Assembly: GCA_003707065.3 (NCBI GenBank)
Contig: PPXM03000002.1
Location: 992,001-1,056,000 of the forward strand
Length of the DNA: 64,000 nucleotides
Direction of reading: 5' to 3'
Source: Trigonopsis variabilis
Taxonomy: Eukaryota; Ascomycota; Trigonopsidomycetes; Trigonopsidales; Trigonopsidaceae
The notes beneath the pieces are model-generated. The model searched no databases. It saw nothing but the letters and a program-made list of their open reading frames with translations, and was not told the origin of the DNA. The position numbers were made by a program, and so were the translations under genes. Below are positions 21,788-56,082 of the stretch, one piece after another (position 1 is the first letter of the stretch; every line of letters begins with the position of its first letter).

Positions 21788-23071
21788 TCAACCAAGCTCT
21801 TGCGGTCGAAGTATATCCATAAGATTATTCCAAAATCCTTGATCATGAACATTATCAATGTCTTTCAATGAATCTAGCCGCCTCATTTGAAGACCATGGC
21901 TGTCTATTAGGTCCCTCTCGCGAGGAGTCAGCAATCTATTGAAACGTCCATTACCTAGATCTTGCAGAATTATGGATCCCCGGCCATGATCTAAGGGTCC
22001 TATATGGATGCCCTCCTCGGAAGGGCTATCAAATATATAGAGCTCTCCATCTTTGATAGCCCACTTCACGGCATCCCACTTTTCGAATTCGTTAGTGGTG
22101 CAACCCAGCCAGATGAAGTAGAGATGTTGCCCAAAAAATGTTAGGGCAACTATAGCTAGTGAAACCGAAACCAAAAAAAGGCTTCCGTTGATTCGTGCTC
22201 CTTTCGTAGTATACTTGATAACATGCCAGTACAAGGCTATTCCTCTAGCATAATCTGGATCTTCCAGTCGATAGTCTTCCACGTTTTGATCGAGAGCCAT
22301 TTTAAGTAAGTAAGCTCCATAGGTGAGCATTTCAAGGTTCCCAAACACAAATAAAAGAAACCACTTGTAGTTTCTCAACCCCACACAATTATTAATCCAA
22401 AGGCCTAAATAGAATTAGTGGCTTGTAAGAATCTTGCATTCTTACAATGGTGATCCATCTTAGCTATGCACCGCCCGCATACTCGACAGTGCTTGCTCCG
22501 AGCCGGCTTCTCTAGATGACATGTCTTGCAGATGGGTCCGGGAGGCCCAACAAACGTTATATTGTCATAAGGATATATCCTTAAAGCTCTATGGATGTTT
22601 TTTTCATTCAATCGGCCCGGGTCAACCACTGTAGCCATTGTCGTCCCGAAATACGGTAAAGCCATCCCAAACGGCACCATAAATCTAAACTCAGCTCACC
22701 TTCCATGGGTCATGCAAACCTGTGAAATGGCGATTGGATCAGTAAAAAGGCATTGGTAAGGAATAAATAATGGCAAAACATCATGCCTCCAACATAGATG
22801 ATCTTATTAGTCAGGATACAGCATTCATCATACCAAAACTATCCAATTAGGCTCGTAGAAGAGATAGTTGAAACACCGCTCTAATACCTTGACACCTCGG
22901 GGCCTATGATTCCATATAATATTGTGTAACTTTCCAACCCAGGTCTTCCTGGCCGGTCAGATCAGCAGCTACCCTCCAATCTCACTTGAACCGAGGGCTT
23001 CTTCCTAAAACTCCCGAAAATATCAAAGCACTGGCGAGGACAATGAGAGCAACCGTGATCTCAATCCTCAT
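21788..23071 (-). CDS. SWF1: DHHC palmitoyltransferase Swf1
   Basis: Five exons, 23071-22986, 22948-22834, 22802-22720, 22684-22446 and 22404-21788, with introns of 37, 31, 35 and 41 nt, encode 379 residues. Swf1 palmitoylates membrane-proximal cysteines of SNAREs such as Tlg1. An N-terminal membrane helix and two more (about 67-110) precede the cysteine-rich domain [21 protein letters not shown]. The catalytic DHHC is completed across the fourth intron, giving [19 protein letters not shown]. Two further membrane helices follow. The end, [15 protein letters not shown], matches the Swf1-specific yeast tail NIYDKGTFLANLTDLI. The start is the first ATG leading straight into the signal-anchor helix ([13 protein letters not shown]). 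It converges on MOB2. Confidence 0.92.
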
Positions 23072-23241: not shown

Positions 23242-23299
23242 AAACTAACATCATATCATTTAGTCCCCCCGGGGGGACTAAATGATATGATGTTAGTTT
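23242..23299. repeat. 58-bp perfect palindrome with no spacer
   Basis: The left arm at 23242-23270 (ending CATTTAGTCCCCCC) is exactly mirrored by 23271-23299 (GGGGGGACTAAATG onward): 29 bp on each side, with a CCCCCCGGGGGG centre. It covers the stop codon of the neighbouring minus-strand gene (stop at 23293-23295). It could act as a bidirectional terminator or be a small palindromic insertion. Confidence 0.95.
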
Positions 23300-25116
23300 C
23301 CTCCAGGTAGTAGATTGCTCAGCGCATTCTTTCGACTTAAGAAGTCATCAGACCGGATCTGGGCTCGAAGCTCTTGCCGGAATTCCACTCGCGTCTCAGG
23401 ATTCCTTGCTAAACGTAGAATCTCTTCAGTTCTCTTATTAAGATACTGGAAGAACATATCAATCTCATCGGGTCCATCGATGCTTCGATGAACCCGATGA
23501 GATTGATGCTTGTTGGCCACAGAAAGAAGAGGGGAATTCTCCTCTGATGAGATCGCAACAACGACGCTCTGAGCAGTGTTCGAAGCGTCGAAAAACCCAA
23601 CTTGGGAAACTTTGGGATAAGAAGAGTTCATCTTGTCCCTCTCGGAGTAGTCCAGTGATGTCAAACGGGAGCGGGTATGGGACTCTGCCGAGGAGCAAAC
23701 GGGGGAATGAGACAAGGACGGAGTCCGCGATGAACAAGTAGATTGCCCGTCAGTGGTGATATTATATCTTTTCAAACCCTCATAACTATTAACTTTGGTA
23801 TTTTCTGGACAAGTCCTGTCTGCAGTACTCACGCTCTTGTCGAAAGTCTTGGTATTCTTTCCAGGCAGATTCGCTTCTGGATACCAGTCATGTCTAGAGG
23901 TACCTTTAGGGACTGGGGGAGAGCGATCTCGCTCAAATAGATGGCTCTTAGAGGAAGACCGCTTTCTCCGAGTGAGGAGGTTCCTGAGAGGCTTCATTGG
24001 GTTATCTGATTCCGACGACTGATCAGTAGCGTCCACATACAATTTGCGAATCGTCTTTAGAATATTTCTTGCTGAAAAACTATCCTTACTCTGATATTCC
24101 CTAGGGATTTTCTTGAGAGTATCGCTTTCGGAGAAGTCTTTTTCAACACTAACTGGAACTTTTTGAGAGAAAATGCCGTCGTCCAATTCTTGAATGGTTT
24201 CAAGACGCTGGCTTGGCTTCGTTGCAGCATTCAAAATTTTGGGATCATGTTTTATAGAGTTCATTCTAAAATTTCCAGCGCCAGCAGATTTATCTCCGTT
24301 TGCAGTTCGACAAGTGGAGTCAGGTTCGAGGGGGCATATACCCCCTCGAACCTGACTCCACATACCATTCTTTTTATCCAGAGACTTTCTAAAATTTTTG
24401 ACATATTTAGAAAGGCCCATGTCGCGCACCGCATTCTTGCGAGAACTTTGCTGGGGGAGAGAGAACCTGTACCTACTCTCTTCCCCAGCAAACTTCTTGC
24501 TTTCTTTAGAAAAATCTCTCGATTCTTCGGAACTTGAGCTAGGGTATTCTCTGCGAGACCTTCTTTTTTGTCTATTGTTCTTCTTTTGAGCTTTCCGAAA
24601 AGCATTGGATTCGGGGTCAGTAAGGATATAATCTTGAGGAAGACCGAATCTAGACCTCTCTGCAGAACATTCTTTAGTGATATCAACTGAACAAGGCAGA
24701 TCAGCGAAAAGAGGCGATTCAGGGGTAGAAGCAGAAGAAAGGGATTTAGCAATTTTCGTCTCAGATGATCTAAAATAATATGTAGGATAATGGATATTCT
24801 TGATAGAGCCAGATTTTGCAGATTTATACAGGTTCGCAGCTTTCTTGCTGTCCTTCATTTTGCGGCTAGGGAACTTGACTGTTTCTTTGCCTTTGATGGC
24901 CAAGACGTAATTATCGAGACGACGATCTTCGTCTGAATGGAAATAGCGGGTATTATGCAGGGCGTAAGGGCGATTTTCCCAGACTCGACTTGAGACTTTC
25001 TTGGCCTTCTTGACCGATCTGTCGATGCATTTATCGACACATTTCTTATTGCAACGGAATTCTTTGGAGCACACTTTGAAGATTTTCAAAGCACAAGTCT
25101 TGATAAAAACAAGCAT
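23293..25116 (-). CDS. Uncharacterised Ser/Lys-rich 607-residue protein with DNA hairpins
   Basis: One intronless frame from ATG at 25116. I recognise no family. The N-terminus is hydrophobic/basic with five cysteines in the first 30 residues (MLVFIKTCALKIFKVCSKEF...CVDKC). Most of the protein is Ser-, Lys- and Arg-rich and likely disordered (KKNNRQKRRSRREYPSSSSE). Only the last 80 residues look folded, with a helical EIDMFFQYLNKRTEEILRL. Three hairpin-forming inverted repeats lie inside the coding sequence and a 58-bp palindrome spans the stop. Lack of introns among intron-bearing neighbours, low complexity and hairpins suggest a fast-evolving, perhaps lineage-restricted gene. Whether it is expressed cannot be judged, but 607 codons without a stop in AT-rich DNA argues that it is real. 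Confidence 0.65.
   Translation of the reverse strand: MLVFIKTCALKIFKVCSKEFRCNKKCVDKCIDRSVKKAKKVSSRVWENRPYALHNTRYFHSDEDRRLDNYVLAIKGKETVKFPSRKMKDSKKAANLYKSAKSGSIKNIHYPTYYFRSSETKIAKSLSSASTPESPLFADLPCSVDITKECSAERSRFGLPQDYILTDPESNAFRKAQKKNNRQKRRSRREYPSSSSEESRDFSKESKKFAGEESRYRFSLPQQSSRKNAVRDMGLSKYVKNFRKSLDKKNGMWSQVRGGICPLEPDSTCRTANGDKSAGAGNFRMNSIKHDPKILNAATKPSQRLETIQELDDGIFSQKVPVSVEKDFSESDTLKKIPREYQSKDSFSARNILKTIRKLYVDATDQSSESDNPMKPLRNLLTRRKRSSSKSHLFERDRSPPVPKGTSRHDWYPEANLPGKNTKTFDKSVSTADRTCPENTKVNSYEGLKRYNITTDGQSTCSSRTPSLSHSPVCSSAESHTRSRLTSLDYSERDKMNSSYPKVSQVGFFDASNTAQSVVVAISSEENSPLLSVANKHQSHRVHRSIDGPDEIDMFFQYLNKRTEEILRLARNPETRVEFRQELRAQIRSDDFLSRKNALSNLLPGGN
23458..23507. repeat. Hairpin: 16-bp perfect arms, 18-bp loop
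   Basis: ATCAATCTCATCGGGT at 23458-23473 is exactly complementary to ACCCGATGAGATTGAT at 23492-23507. The loop itself contains a 5-bp stem (ATCGA/TCGAT). It lies inside the 607-residue coding sequence. Confidence 0.9.
24314..24361. repeat. Hairpin: 21-bp perfect arms, 6-bp loop
   Basis: The arm 24314-24334 (starting GTGGAGTCAGG) is exactly complementary to 24341-24361 (ending CCTGACTCCAC), with loop CATATA. It lies inside the 607-residue coding sequence. Confidence 0.95.
24447..24492. repeat. Hairpin: 17-bp arms with one mismatch, 12-bp loop
   Basis: TTTGCTGGGGGAGAGAG at 24447-24463 pairs with CTCTCTTCCCCAGCAAA at 24476-24492 except for one position. It lies inside the 607-residue coding sequence. 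Confidence 0.8.
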
Positions 25117-25497: not shown

Positions 25498-27420
25498 TTA
25501 ATTAGGGCGGAGAGCCATTCTGCGCTTCTCTTTTACTCGTCGATGAGCTCGACGAGCTTTTGCTTTCACTGCATATGCCTTCTCAAGAGGTAGTGAAGGC
25601 ATATGCTCCTCAAAGAGTAGAATAAAATCTCCCACCCCATTGTACTCTTCATAAGGATCTTCAGGATCTTTCAGGAGCTCTCCAACAAAGGCGTACGCCT
25701 CAAAGGGATCTTCAGCCTCGTAGAATAGATCTCCAACTCCATAGTATTCCTCATAAGGATCCTCGGGGTCTTTCAGGAGCTCTCCAACAAAGGCGTACGC
25801 CTCATAGGGGTCTTCAGTCTCGTAGAATAGATCGCCGACCCCAGTATATTCCTCAAAAGGATCTTCAGTCTCGCGGAAAAGATCTCCCACTCCATTGTAT
25901 TCCTCAAAAGGATCTTCAGCCTCGTAGAATAGATCTCCAACTCCATAGTATTCCTCATAAGGATCCTCGGGGTCTTTCAGGAGCTCTCCAACAAAGGCGT
26001 ACGCCTCATAGGGGTCTTCAGTCTCGTAGAATAGATCGCCGACCCCAGTATATTCCTCAAAAGGATCTTCAGTCTCGCGGAAAAGATCTCCCACTCCATT
26101 GTATTCCTCAAAAGGATCTTCAGCCTCGTAGAATAGATCTCCAACTCCATAGTATTCCTCATAAGGATCCTCGGGGTCTTTCAGGAGCTCTCCAACAAAG
26201 GCGTACGCCTCATAGGGGTCTTCAGTCTCGTAGAATAGATCGCCGACCCCAGTATATTCCTCGAAAGGATCTTCAGTCTCGCAGAAAAGATCTCCCACTC
26301 CACTGTATTCCTCAAAAGGATCTTCCACTCCATTGTATTTCTCAAAAGGATCTTCAGTCTCGCAGAAGAGATTTCCCACTCCACTGTATTCCTCATAAGG
26401 ATCCTCGGGGTCTTTCAGGAGCTCTCCAACAAAGGCGTACGCCTCATAGGGATCTTCAGCCTCATGGAATAGATCGCCTACCCCAGTGTATTCCTCAAAA
26501 GGATCTTCAGTCTCGCAGAAAAGATCTCCCACTCCATTGTATTCCTCAAAAGGATCTTCAGCCTCGTAGAATAGATCTCCAACTCCATAGTATTCCTCAT
26601 AAGGGTCCTCGGGGTCTTTCAGGAGCTCTCCAACAAAGGCGTACGCCTCATAGGGGTCTTCAGTCTCGTAGAATAGATCGCCGACCCCAGTATATTCCTC
26701 GAAAGGATCTTCAGTCTCGCAGAAAAGATCTCCCACTCCACTGTATTCCTCAAAAGGATCTTCCACTCCATTGTATTTCTCAAAAGGATCTTCAGTCTCG
26801 CAGAAGAGATTTCCCACTCCACTGTATTCCTCATAAGGATCCTCGGGGTCTTTCAGGAGCTCTCCAACAAAGGCGTACGCCTCATAGGGATCTTCAGCCT
26901 CATGGAATAGATCGCCTACCCCAGTGTATTCCTCAAAAGGATCTTCAGTCTCGCAGAAAAGATCTCCCACTCCATTGTATTCCTCAAAAGGATCTTCAGC
27001 CTCGTAGAATAGATCTCCAACTCCATAGTATTCCTCATAAGGGTCCTCGGGGTCTTTCAGGAGCTCTCCAACAAAGGCGTACGCCTCATAGGGGTCTTCA
27101 GTCTCGTAGAATAGATCGCCGACCCCAGTATATTCCTCGAAAGGATCTTCAGTCTCGCAGAAAAGATTTCCCACTCCACTGTATTCGTCAAAAGGATCAA
27201 TGTCAGACTCGTCATTGATACCTTGGAAGATGTCTGAGTCGTCGTCAGAGATATTATCGGAACCAGAGGCATAATTTTCTGACTGATCAGAGAACTTTCT
27301 TTCCCGACTAAGTGGAGCAAAATAGTTCTCGGACCGAAGGTAGATAATATAATCCTCCTCATGTGAGGAACATGATTTCATTTGCGCGACACAGTCATCG
27401 GTAATATCGATAAGAGACAT
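25498..27420 (-). CDS. Acidic 17-residue-repeat protein, family unknown
   Basis: An intronless 640-residue protein. After an 80-residue acidic, Ser-rich lead (MSLIDITDDCVAQMKSC, ISDDDSDIFQGINDESD), about thirty 17-residue units run almost to the end. They are of two kinds: EDPFEEYTGVGDLFYET and EDPYEAYAFVGELLKDP. Two units are cut to 10 residues (EDPFEKYNGV). Units are organised in blocks of four (68 residues, 204 bp) and nine (146 residues, 438 bp) that are nearly identical at DNA level, showing recent expansion in frame. The final 35 residues are strongly basic (KARRAHRRVKEKRRM), giving an acid-to-base polarity. There is no signal peptide or membrane helix. I know no family with this repeat; a scaffold or disordered binding protein is possible. 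Confidence 0.75.
   Translation of the reverse strand: MSLIDITDDCVAQMKSCSSHEEDYIIYLRSENYFAPLSRERKFSDQSENYASGSDNISDDDSDIFQGINDESDIDPFDEYSGVGNLFCETEDPFEEYTGVGDLFYETEDPYEAYAFVGELLKDPEDPYEEYYGVGDLFYEAEDPFEEYNGVGDLFCETEDPFEEYTGVGDLFHEAEDPYEAYAFVGELLKDPEDPYEEYSGVGNLFCETEDPFEKYNGVEDPFEEYSGVGDLFCETEDPFEEYTGVGDLFYETEDPYEAYAFVGELLKDPEDPYEEYYGVGDLFYEAEDPFEEYNGVGDLFCETEDPFEEYTGVGDLFHEAEDPYEAYAFVGELLKDPEDPYEEYSGVGNLFCETEDPFEKYNGVEDPFEEYSGVGDLFCETEDPFEEYTGVGDLFYETEDPYEAYAFVGELLKDPEDPYEEYYGVGDLFYEAEDPFEEYNGVGDLFRETEDPFEEYTGVGDLFYETEDPYEAYAFVGELLKDPEDPYEEYYGVGDLFYEAEDPFEEYNGVGDLFRETEDPFEEYTGVGDLFYETEDPYEAYAFVGELLKDPEDPYEEYYGVGDLFYEAEDPFEAYAFVGELLKDPEDPYEEYNGVGDFILLFEEHMPSLPLEKAYAVKAKARRAHRRVKEKRRMALRPN
25536..25556. 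repeat. Small hairpin near the 3' end of the repeat gene
   Basis: CTCGTCGA at 25536-25543 is complementary to TCGACGAG at 25549-25556, with a 5-bp loop, within the basic C-terminal coding segment. Confidence 0.65.
25571..25606. repeat. Hairpin: 12-bp perfect arms near the 3' end of the repeat gene
   Basis: GCATATGCCTTC at 25571-25582 is complementary to GAAGGCATATGC at 25595-25606, with a 12-bp loop. It lies just after the last 17-residue unit. Confidence 0.8.
25620..27205 (-). repeat. Higher-order coding repeat: 51-bp units in 204-bp and 438-bp blocks
   Basis: Blocks repeat with offsets of 204 bp (25773, 25977, 26181) and 438 bp (26181, 26619, 27057). Copies differ by only a few bases. The 438-bp block equals eight 51-bp units plus one 30-bp truncated unit. 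Every length is a multiple of three, so copy-number change keeps the frame. Confidence 0.9.
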
Positions 27421-27780
27421 TCTTCAAAAGATAGTATAAGATAAAAGCGGTAGAGATAACTAGGGTATGGATACAAATGCGAGACTTTATATGTTTTCGC
27501 TAAGGCATAAGGCTCGAGCTAAGGCGACGCCTTTCAGCCAACAGGCAACACCAAAGGCACAAGAAAATTCCCAGGAAGGCATTTAGAAGAAAGGAATGAC
27601 CGAGATACTAGCTCTCTTAGTATGTATTAATTAAATCAGGATGTTTTATGGTCATCTTGAACGTGTGTAGCGTATATCATTCAAATCAATCACACAAATT
27701 CTCTGGTACAGTCGAATGCTGATAAAGAATATCGCTATTCGCGCAACTTATTCACACTACGTGGTATATGCGGTATAATC

Positions 27781-27900
27781 TAGGCAAAGACAGAGATGTA
27801 AATGAGGCAATGAGGCAACAAAAGGCAGGTAAAGGCAAATGAGGGAAACAAGGCGGTAAAGCCACATAGAGGCAGGTAGAGGCAGGGAAAAGGCGGTATG
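27781..27900 (+). repeat. AGGCA-rich simple repeat
   Basis: About ten occurrences of AGGCA or AGGCG within 120 bases, irregularly spaced by A-rich linkers (for example GAGGCAATGAGGCAACAAAA). More AGGCA copies occur around 27530-27590. Confidence 0.6.
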
Positions 27901-53185: not shown

Positions 53186-54204
53186 TGACAAGGGCATCCA
53201 GAGCAAGTCTGATATGGCTGGTAACAAGAATGTGTCGGTCCTAAGCCCAATATGGCAACTATTACCACTCTACAAGCCGATAATGAGATGGATTCATCGC
53301 GACAGACTTGTCTTTCCCGCTACGTCGGTTAATTAATGTGCAGAATGTGACAACGGTATGTACTTTATGAAATGTGAATGATGCAAAAATAGCAATAAAG
53401 TTTGTCGTATTCACGTGTTCCGGATCGACTGTTACCGGTGGCGCAGATAGCCATATGCCAAGCCTCTTCTTTTGTCGCCAAAGCCGACCTTAGTAAAGAT
53501 CTACCAGGCTGCTGATAGGAATCAGGCAGGATCTGAGAGGATCAGGTCAGTTTATAATGGCGACTGACAGGCTCAACATGTTGGGAGAAGAGGTAGTGCT
53601 TGGGTCGTAACTAGCGAGAGTCCGGGTAAATGGTGTAGGGGGAACAGCAGAGACAGTGCTAGCGTAGAAAGTAAAGAGAAAAAGGGAAATCAGACTGTAA
53701 CTAAGTTGAATGAGGATTGATCCGTCGCTCATTAGGGTAAAAGGAAAGATCAGGGAGGGATACCGGGGCCAATAGTGGCTGACGGATTCTCGTTCGCCAA
53801 GGCCTTGGTACATGCGATATTCCCCTCTTCTTGGCCATGGCGGTTTTTAGTCTTTAGGAGCACGTTACAGTGGCAACTTAACATCTTGACATTATCCCCA
53901 CGAAAATCTAACTGGCCTGATCGTGGAATTTGAACTACAAAGTTAATTACCTAAAGCCAGAACTTGGTAAGCGTGATCTACCGGTCTCTCCCAACGAGCC
54001 TGAGAGCCATTTATCTTAGACTCGCCGCGTGACCTCTGGTTGGCCCATGGAGTACTAACAGCCCAGAAGTCGTTTTTCGGATCTAGTTTACCAGGCTTTT
54101 TATACCTTTCTCAGACGACAAACGAATAAGGGTTTCGATATCTTTCTGGATCTTTTAAAGTTTTAAAGAACTAGACAAGCTTGTGAACTCACCTGTTGAT
54201 CGCC
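53186..54204. promoter_or_regulatory. PACC upstream region with PacC-type GCCAAG sites
   Basis: About 1 kb between SIP3 and PACC. GCCAAG (the PacC consensus GCCARG) occurs at 53457-53462 and 53796-53801, and its complement CTTGGC at 53830-53835, 370-750 bp before the ATG. A candidate 5' leader intron runs from GTAAGC at 53967 to a TACTAACAGCCCAG acceptor ending at 54066, but a TATA-like TTTTATACC at about 54098 could instead mark a later promoter. A minus-strand 88-codon frame at 53547-53813 is not called. Confidence 0.5.
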
Positions 54205-56082
54205 ATGACAACCAACGCTTCTAGTCAACTGGACATTGCCAGTCAAACCGATCACTCTACCAACTCGCCAGAGAAAATCGGTCTTTCGCCTACATTATCA
54301 ATTGCGCCTATGGACTTGGGATCTGGTTCTTCAGATGCCGGGTCGGCACATTCGAAACTGTCTCCCGGAGACTCGTCATCTAACGCGACCACACCAGAGG
54401 ACTATTCCGTGCATCCGAATCATATGAGAGTCTCTTCTTCTCATAAAGAAGGAGTTTACCCTGCAGACTCATTCCAGCACCTTACCGCGGGCCATCCAAA
54501 TGAGGGTATTCCCGTTGCTCCTTTGCCCTCTGTCGAGCTTAGTCTAACCGGAAAGTACGTTCACGAAACCAGCCCTTCCGGTTATGATGAGTCCTTAAAC
54601 CACAAGAGCCCTGGACTAGTGGACGTTCCCTCCAACCGGCAAAGAAAATGGGTCTGTGAATGGGGCGACTGCTCGGGAACTTTCGGATCCACTGAGGAGT
54701 TGTATTTCCACGTTTGCGATTCCCATATCGGACGCAAGTCTAAAAACAACCTCTGTCTGACTTGTGGATGGGGATCTTGCCGGGTCAAGACCGTCAAGCG
54801 AGACCATATTACCTCTCACATCAGAGTCCACGTCCCATTCAAGCCTCACAAGTGCGACGTCTGCTCAAAGACGTTCAAGAGACCTCAAGACTTGAAGAAA
54901 CATATCAAGACCCATGCTCCTGAACCGGATTCGCAGCTCGATGCCTCAGGCTATATTGCCGGGAGAATGAATATGAGAAACGACCTTCACCCTGGCTCTT
55001 ACTATACCGGCCAAGCTTATCATGACCTCTCACAGCAACATATCCATCATCCCTCTCATGAGTATGTGGGTCAGACCGCCATCCATCAAGGGTATCCGGC
55101 TAATCAATACAATGCCTGCCACCCTGTCAGTGCGTCCCATCAATCGACTCATCAGAATATGAACAATTACGGTTACAATGGCGTCTACAATTACTCCCAT
55201 TCTCATGTACCTCAACAGGCTCCCCAAGTTTCTGATCACTATTATGGCCAACCCGGTGCTCAATACAATGCAATGTCGTTCTCAAGTGCTCCTGGTGAGC
55301 TTGTCAACTCCCGCAAGCGGCCCATTGAGGCAGTTGGTGAATTCCTTGATGACGTTCGACGGCATAAGGATGCCCCGGTCTATTCCAGCGAGATGGCGGG
55401 CAAACTGGCCAACTTGGAATCTGCTATAGGTAACACTGACCTGCACCTTTCCTCCTACAACCATCCTTCCCAGAAAATGAAGGTCGACCAGTCAGGTCTC
55501 CGCTCTCGTCATGACTTGCTCGAGACTTCTAGCTTCTTGTCTTCTTTGTCTCACTCTATGTACCAGGCCGGCAGTATTCCTCCAGTCAAGACTGGTGGTA
55601 TGTCGGCTCATCCTGGTGATTATTCTGCTGTTAACAAGGTTGCTTCCAAACCTCAGCAAGCTCCAAATGTCAATCTATACCCCACTCTCCCGTCTGTCAA
55701 TCACTACGACTCCTCCGGATCGATTAGCAGCATGTCTCACACTATTCTTCCTCAACTTTCGGGCAGGTTTGATGTCGACTATGGTCGCCATTGCAACGTG
55801 GGAATAGCCCAGAAAACAGGAAAGGCTCTAGAGGATGATGTTAATGAGCTCACGAGCAAGCTTGATAAACTCGAGACCTCAGATGTCGATGAGAGCAGCG
55901 AGGACGAGGAAACTCTTGACCCAGAGGAAGAGGCTTATCTCCGACAATGTGAGTTGGTTGACAGACTACTTGCATATGTTCAATCTTTGTTAGAAGACAA
56001 CAGTACAGAGCAAAAGGTGATTCCAGTGCCAAGCGAAAAGGCATTCTCATCATCTTTGTACCCTAAGTTGGCTGCTTACTAG
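54205..56082 (+). CDS. PACC: PacC/Rim101 pH-responsive zinc-finger transcription factor
   Basis: An intronless 625-residue protein. PacC activates alkaline genes and represses acid genes after proteolytic processing. Three C2H2 fingers (about 150-235) match PacC almost word for word: [39 protein letters not shown] and [20 protein letters not shown]. The long His/Tyr/Ser-rich middle is disordered. Two YPxL motifs, YPTL (about 491) and YPKL (about 618), are the PalA/Alix-binding sites flanking the signalling-protease region. An acidic coiled segment ([15 protein letters not shown]) and [20 protein letters not shown] lie between them. The start MTTNASS at 54205 is used because the frame is open 5' only from a TTG. 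PALI is in the same window. Confidence 0.95.

Follow-up and report, generated by a model that had tools for sequence, protein, structure and literature searches.

A minus-strand gene built of 17-residue units

The window analysed here, the whole 64,000-nucleotide stretch of contig PPXM03000002.1 from the ascomycete yeast Trigonopsis variabilis, contains a gene for a strongly acidic tandem-repeat protein, which is read on the minus strand at 25498-27420 as a single open reading frame (ORF) of 640 codons (Table 1). From its amino to its carboxyl end the protein consists of 73 unique residues, 32 units and a basic tail of 37 residues. The array (residues 74-603) makes up 530 of the 640 residues, or 83% of the protein. 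With unit boundaries set at the acidic-Asp-Pro-aromatic start, 22 units are of a GVG(D/N)LF type (the last one with a divergent end), eight are of an AFVGELLKDP type and two are truncated; the AFVGELLKDP-type units recur mostly every fourth unit, in a cycle of 68 residues or 204 bp. Among the 22 GVG-type units, variation is greatest at position 8, occupied by T, S, Y or N, and at position 15, where Y, C, H and R occur and the last unit has L; F or Y stands at position 4 and mostly T or A at position 17, and elsewhere the units hardly vary. Net charge is -13 over residues 1-74, -161 over residues 74-603 and +8 over residues 604-640, the array being by far the most acidic part.

These observations agree in most respects with an earlier note, which was made from the letters of the same DNA. 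Its span for the ORF is exact, with the strand left unstated, and the acidic N-terminus and basic C-terminus that it described are both present. Its estimate of about thirty units filling 80% of the protein was close, but the two unit types do not strictly alternate as it had proposed.

Table 1 Features of the repeat gene and its paralog. Positions are those of the window unless another coordinate system is given.
Feature	Position	Strand	Remark
Repeat-protein ORF, 640 aa	25498..27420	minus	ATG at 27420, stop at 25498-25500; basis: codon log-odds
TATA-like element CATATAAAGT	27484..27493	minus	64-73 bp upstream of ATG; by eye
Unique N-terminus, residues 1-73	27202..27420	minus	acidic/Ser-rich; no hydrophobic signal-like stretch
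Array, 32 units (30 of 17 aa, 2 of 10 aa)	25612..27201	minus	net charge -161
438-bp (146-residue) block, copy 1, units 2-10	26713..27150	minus	unit DNA identical to units 11-19
438-bp block, copy 2, units 11-19	26275..26712	minus	
Truncated 10-residue unit 9	26764..26793	minus	
Truncated 10-residue unit 18	26326..26355	minus	DNA identical to unit 9
204-bp block, units 22-25	25969..26172	minus	353-bp identical run at lag 204
204-bp block, units 26-29	25765..25968	minus	copy of units 22-25
Unique C-terminus, residues 604-640	25501..25611	minus	net +8; weak predicted helix (block pLDDT, predicted local distance difference test, 45-54); by eye nuclear-localisation-like
Paralog	L009:3957-4346 = G000:C2:954956-955345	minus	62 kb from array gene; outside window

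The array contains two sets of identical blocks. Units 2-10 equal units 11-19 at every base, the truncated unit included, and the identical DNA runs extend to 562 bp at a lag of 438 and to 353 bp at a lag of 204. Tandem Repeats Finder scores the 438-bp period at 2504, its reporting threshold being 50. The DNA identity of the two unit sets confirms the proposal that the 438-bp block was itself duplicated and that the truncated units were copied along with it; the copy number of the identical blocks is given as assembled and depends on the assembly. Distinct units are far more diverged than the identical blocks (proportions of synonymous and nonsynonymous differences, pS and pN, of 0.468 and 0.183), indicating that an older set of units was recently block-copied, or homogenised.

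The reading frame is distinguished by codon usage. Codon log-odds, trained on 13 of the 21 window ORFs that served as controls (the window has 27 other ORFs with 150 or more amino acids, six of which were set aside as overlapping or doubtful-looking), amount to +0.27 for the sense frame of the ORF and to 0.028 or less for the other five frames. The sense frame tops all six both in residues 1-73 (+0.235) and in the array (+0.285). The signal is weak in the 37-residue tail (+0.129), where one antisense frame reaches +0.263 but carries one stop. Comparison of the distinct units (13 sequences among 29 full units, with unit 32 and both truncated ones excluded) gives a pN/pS of 0.39 for the sense frame and of 1.26-2.55 for four other frames. 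Against the sense strand stands the antisense frame that shares its wobble positions, which is open over 530 codons with an equal pN/pS of 0.37, so that this ratio alone cannot pick the strand; the codon score of that frame is just 0.017, and the ORF listing holds no start-to-stop ORF of at least 60 residues on the plus strand at the array. Codon bias and a pN/pS of 0.39 in the sense frame favour coding, and we conclude that the repeat gene is real. Its product is probably intracellular. Judged by hydropathy, the signal peptide of a wall or adhesin repeat protein is lacking, the highest 19-residue Kyte-Doolittle mean being 0.49, at residue 594.

A 288-residue stretch of the host's RPB2 is identical at 257 of 288 positions to PDB chain 5x4z_B, which we take to be from Komagataella; this agrees with a fungal host, probably a yeast. 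The five CTG codons in this stretch all align with Leu, as the standard genetic code would have it. S. cerevisiae chains are among the next matches, together with one further chain that is presumably from S. pombe.

A diverged paralog outside the window

In a translated search of the whole genome (11,351,025 bases in 15 contigs), in which only the best candidates were scored, one place besides the array was found, at G000:C2:955067-955201 (E 4.7e-5; repeat search, 4.0e-5; reciprocal search, 6.2e-5). The frame at this locus has 212 codons; as judged by codon bias, its coding part comprises the 129 residues from an internal ATG onwards (log-odds +0.123), the 83 codons preceding that ATG scoring -0.023. 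Three units form a 17-residue period within the paralog itself; the lag-17 score of 47 was reached by none of 2000 shuffles, or by one of 2000 if any lag from 5 to 59 is counted. Local alignment with the array scores 104, the shuffle maximum being 60 (n = 500), and the unit order A-A-B is common to both. Acidic residues interleaved with aromatic residues and Leu/Val at fixed spacing are shared by the two proteins.

Aligned codon by codon to four places of the array, the paralog is identical at 14-15 of 43 residues, with pS of 0.68-0.79 and pN of 0.39-0.40. Synonymous sites are near saturation; the unit is old and constrained, and the expansion of the array is recent.

The N-termini of the two proteins agree, by eye, in the first three residues only (best local score 18), and no homology above shuffles was found between the downstream regions. 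Upstream, the stretch around the TATA-like element shows weak local likeness to the corresponding region of the paralog (15 of 1000 and 4 of 1000 shuffles were as good), and the global alignment scores 35 against a shuffle mean of 39.8; homology of the promoters is given little weight.

The paralog locus also carries an interruption. On the minus strand at L009:3678-4346 (G000:C2:954677-955345), one in-frame stop follows the 129 residues, and the same frame continues past it for 92 codons with a coding-like bias (+0.238) and contains an apparent second repeat, which scores 77 at its best lag, 40. The paralog may be a recently truncated gene.

Surrounding sequence

On the same strand, 381 bp downstream of the acidic gene, starts a basic, Ser-rich orphan ORF of 607 amino acids (23293-25116, minus; net charge +42, 85 Ser), which has no Pfam match at E 0.01 and matches only itself in the genome. 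Four near-perfect palindromes of unrelated sequence lie within this ORF or at its 3′ end (23242-23299, 23458-23507, 24314-24361 and 24439-24500), with arms of 23-29 nt that are 88-100% complementary. They are the only ones in the window under a scan for arms of at least 18, mismatch of at most 13% and a spacer of at most 12; a scan of looser identity adds weaker palindromes at four places, one at 22023-22062 (20 nt, 85%) and three others that measure 18 nt (83-89%). Palindromes with arms of at least 18 are absent from 76,001 bases of eight other genome stretches, where one has arms of 16, and from two Markov controls of the window. Apart from one match of 17/23, the arms have no second copy in the window beyond their own partners. 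The predicted RNA folds of the two regions in which the palindromes lie have z-scores of -9.7 and -10.6. The palindromes may have arisen by separate template switches or may function as hairpins in the mRNA, unless they are an artefact of the assembly or the library.

Between the repeat gene and an ERG4/ERG24 gene there is a tandem repeat of 2.5 copies of a 28-base unit (27805-27874). A DHHC gene has a 41-nt intron-like gap between two ORF pieces (22400-22450, minus; GTAAGA...CTAAT...TAG, by eye). The neighbouring genes further include those for Tpt1, THO subunit 1, a SUR7-like protein and an adaptin.

Relatives, motif likeness and candidate roles

The repeat protein belongs to no Pfam family at E 0.01; the best match at E 1 is Tyrosinase_C, with an E value of 0.13, below the cut-off. 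Two NCBIfam models matched with E values up to 10. The higher-scoring one, non-heme ferritin NF007638, reaches 26.1 bits against a cut-off of 178 and covers 25 residues only. Two insignificant matches came from the PDB sequence search, both to engineered tetratricopeptide repeat (TPR) proteins (E 0.34 and 1.4). With the Pfam, NCBIfam and PDB matches all below any cut-off, identity with a known domain is rejected. Scans with short patterns, which reach close relatives only, gave eight matches in prokaryote genomes, none of them confirmed, and no relative in viral contigs; tblastn found none in plasmids or phages. Six peptide strings of the unit are unmatched in the literature collection searched, and the titles and abstract openings examined show no counterpart. 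The earlier note knew of no described family with this repeat and had named a clear match to a known domain as what would tell against novelty; no such match was found, and the repeat unit is new relative to the Pfam, NCBIfam and PDB libraries searched. An orphan tandem-repeat protein that has grown by block duplication is itself a familiar kind.

Structure prediction, which the note had proposed for four consecutive units, gave an array with no confident fold. AlphaFold2 reached a mean pLDDT of 37.9 for the whole protein, predicted from its single sequence, and of 37.7 for a 156-residue piece with 10 alignment rows, and no residue reached 70 in either model. A short helix was drawn at very low confidence in 28 of 32 units of the whole protein and in six of seven units of the piece; confidence is highest in the tail. 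The models suggest that the protein is probably, for the most part, intrinsically disordered. Hydrophobic moments of single units are unexceptional: mildly raised in four array units, where 152-177 of 2000 shuffles were as high, and high, middling and among the lowest in three units of the paralog (25, 124 and 1993 of 2000).

Two kinds of likeness to known binding elements were scored. The LC3-interacting region (LIR) follows a consensus of [W/F/Y]-x-x-[I/L/V] preceded by acids, and the FIP200-interacting region (FIR) a similar form, according to PMC7615515; the repeated core of the array fits the general LIR form. A LIR-like core, [DE][DE][WFY]xx[LIV], occurs 22 times in the protein, once per GVG-type unit, and three times in the paralog, once per unit. 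The 21 control ORFs of the window hold three such cores in 11,582 residues, and none of 2000 paralog shuffles reaches three. A composition rule for acidic activation domains, made on human factors and available in an original and an improved version (PMC10550315), asks for tiles of 39 residues that are acidic and rich in W/F/Y/L. Of the 492 tiles in the array, 490 pass the original rule and 376 the improved one; of the 91 paralog tiles, 19 and 27 pass. Array tiles fail the improved rule by charge only (46), by too few W/F/L only (64) or by both (6). In the window controls the corresponding counts are 23 and 71 of 10,784 tiles, and 21 of the 23 lie in one ORF with zinc-finger matches (54196-56082); 28 of 7,174 tiles pass in genome controls (18 frames of at least 200 residues from five other stretches). 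Both tests, made on sequence, point to likeness to a motif or a domain, not to function.

The protein also contains the tripeptides DPF (17 times) and DPY (15 times). With no DPF or DPW in the paralog, DPF was given little weight as the conserved core of the family. NPF, clathrin-box and GAE-like patterns have no match in the protein, and the paralog has one clathrin-box match.

Our preferred reading, held tentatively and at somewhat less than even confidence, is that the protein is disordered and serves as a multivalent scaffold on which aromatic-acidic motifs lie exposed. The earlier suggestion of a binding scaffold or condensate-type protein seems plausible in the light of an acidic-aromatic array with no confident fold and a spacing that is kept in the diverged paralog. 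The coding frame, the repeat history, the paralogy, the constraint, the absence of a confident fold and the likeness in motif and composition have direct support; to these the reading adds disorder, a localisation and a partner, which we infer. The short linear motif that the array would present in 32 copies consists of acidic-Pro-aromatic, an acidic pair, Tyr, Val, Gly-acidic and Leu-Phe; the copies would probably form a chain of short, transient helices. Aromatic, Leu and Val side chains, held exposed by the neighbouring acids, might dock in a hydrophobic groove of the partner, avidity being supplied by copy number, and the basic tail could serve in nuclear import, nucleic-acid contact or self-association. 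Growth of the array was recent, by slippage or unequal exchange of the 204- and 438-bp blocks.

Several points weigh against this reading. Low AlphaFold2 confidence says little about disorder when the alignment behind it is nearly empty, and the unexceptional hydrophobic moments argue against a strict amphipathic helix. The in-frame stop of the paralog, followed by a coding-like stretch, means that the family may be dispensable. A stricter LIR pattern occurs once in the array protein, outside the repeated core, and three times in the paralog; moreover, the array gene and the paralog are homologous, so that the core they have in common is not independent evidence. The activation-domain rule counts composition only and is human-derived, so any repeat of such make-up passes, and at E 0.01 Pfam detects no DNA-binding domain in the repeat protein.

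The alternative that survives best, which we nevertheless consider unlikely, is that the gene is an orphan, either young or in decay, that lacks a strong function, with a minisatellite expanding inside a tolerant ORF. The identical copies of 562 and 353 bp, the single paralog with its in-frame stop and the lack of relatives in the prokaryote, viral, plasmid and phage collections are what such an orphan would show. The divergence from the paralog, nearly saturated at synonymous sites but constrained at nonsynonymous ones, runs counter to it, and the low pN/pS among units and a frame preserved through the 10-residue truncations were likewise counted against the absence of function.

Two equal leading guesses as to the partner are sub-cases of the scaffold reading, each a little less probable still than decay. 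The protein may be a multivalent binder of Atg8 (or of a FIP200-claw-like domain), an autophagy receptor or scaffold in which each unit would offer a weak core, EEYxGV, of the type of the LIR or Atg8-interacting motif (AIM), and avidity would compensate for the weakness. This guess is put forward because the LIR-like core is what both paralogs keep, and the rarity of the core in the control ORFs and in the paralog shuffles is in its favour. The departure of the repeated core from the stricter pattern is not, nor is the Ala at position -1 of the second unit type, and an acidic-aromatic repeat may hold such a core by coincidence, the copies in the paralog being dependent through homology. A Gly directly before the last residue of a LIR core is, besides, unusual. 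The other guess, a coactivator, comes from the composition, which matches that of acidic activation domains. The array may be a series of such domains strung together by nature, as a counterpart of the synthetic VP64 idea, and the protein would recruit coactivators in the nucleus, tethered by its basic tail or by a partner. The array passes the original rule almost throughout, and the zinc-finger ORF that holds most of the passing control tiles acts as a natural positive control; the lack of a DNA-binding domain, the dependence of the rule on composition and the lower pass rate of its improved version count on the other side.

Folding of the array into a regular solenoid, in which each 17-residue unit would form a helix and a turn started by an Asp-Pro cap, appears improbable. 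The helices drawn in most units would accord with it, as would the engineered TPR proteins among the insignificant PDB matches, but the mean pLDDT is 38 with no residue at 70 or above, 22 of the 32 units contain two glycines, the array has a net charge of -161 and Asp-Pro is not kept in the paralog. Least probable among the alternatives, and very unlikely, is an endocytic-type scaffold whose DPF array would bind adaptor appendages by avidity, as described for Eps15 in PMC4921775: the abundant DPF and DPY suit it, but the paralog has no DPF, so the family does not conserve the tripeptide, and the protein matches no clathrin-box, NPF or GAE-like pattern and no EH or other Pfam domain.

A more elaborate form of the scaffold reading is a long shot. 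In it, a single docking motif that is either LIR-like or activation-domain-like would be arrayed 32 times by nature, its strength tuned by copy number through duplication of 204- and 438-bp blocks, and the protein would perhaps be paired with the oppositely charged neighbour protein in a charge-complementary assembly, the whole forming a fast-evolving module in one 4-kb stretch with tandem copies and palindromes. If the protein is an exposed acidic-aromatic scaffold, it would provide a natural series for the dependence of binding or activation on motif number, with a unit fixed by old selection and a number that shifts through block duplication. The repeat gene and its paralog would also be the founding members of a repeat family absent from the family libraries searched; as an orphan and probably disordered tandem-repeat protein, the product is of an ordinary kind.

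Among known systems, LIR/AIM proteins that bind Atg8 share with the array protein and its paralog the core of two acidic residues, an aromatic residue, two further residues and V/I, found here 22 and three times, respectively; the array differs from them in its departure from the stricter pattern and in its regular 17-residue spacing. Acidic activation domains of the VP16 H1 and CITED2 type likewise have acids interleaved with F, Y and L, whereas the array is a 32-fold tandem with no DNA-binding domain found in the protein. Eps15 and Eps15R also carry many DPF in a probably disordered chain; they differ from the present protein, which has a regular 17-residue spacing, no EH domain and a paralog devoid of DPF. 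LSA-1 of Plasmodium has, like the array, 17-residue tandem repeats, but these are of mixed charge and rich in Glu, Gln and Lys (compared by description only). Variable intragenic arrays also occur in fungal surface or wall repeat proteins; the present protein is unlike them in having no signal-like hydrophobic stretch and no matching Pfam family, and is like them in the block duplications within its coding array.

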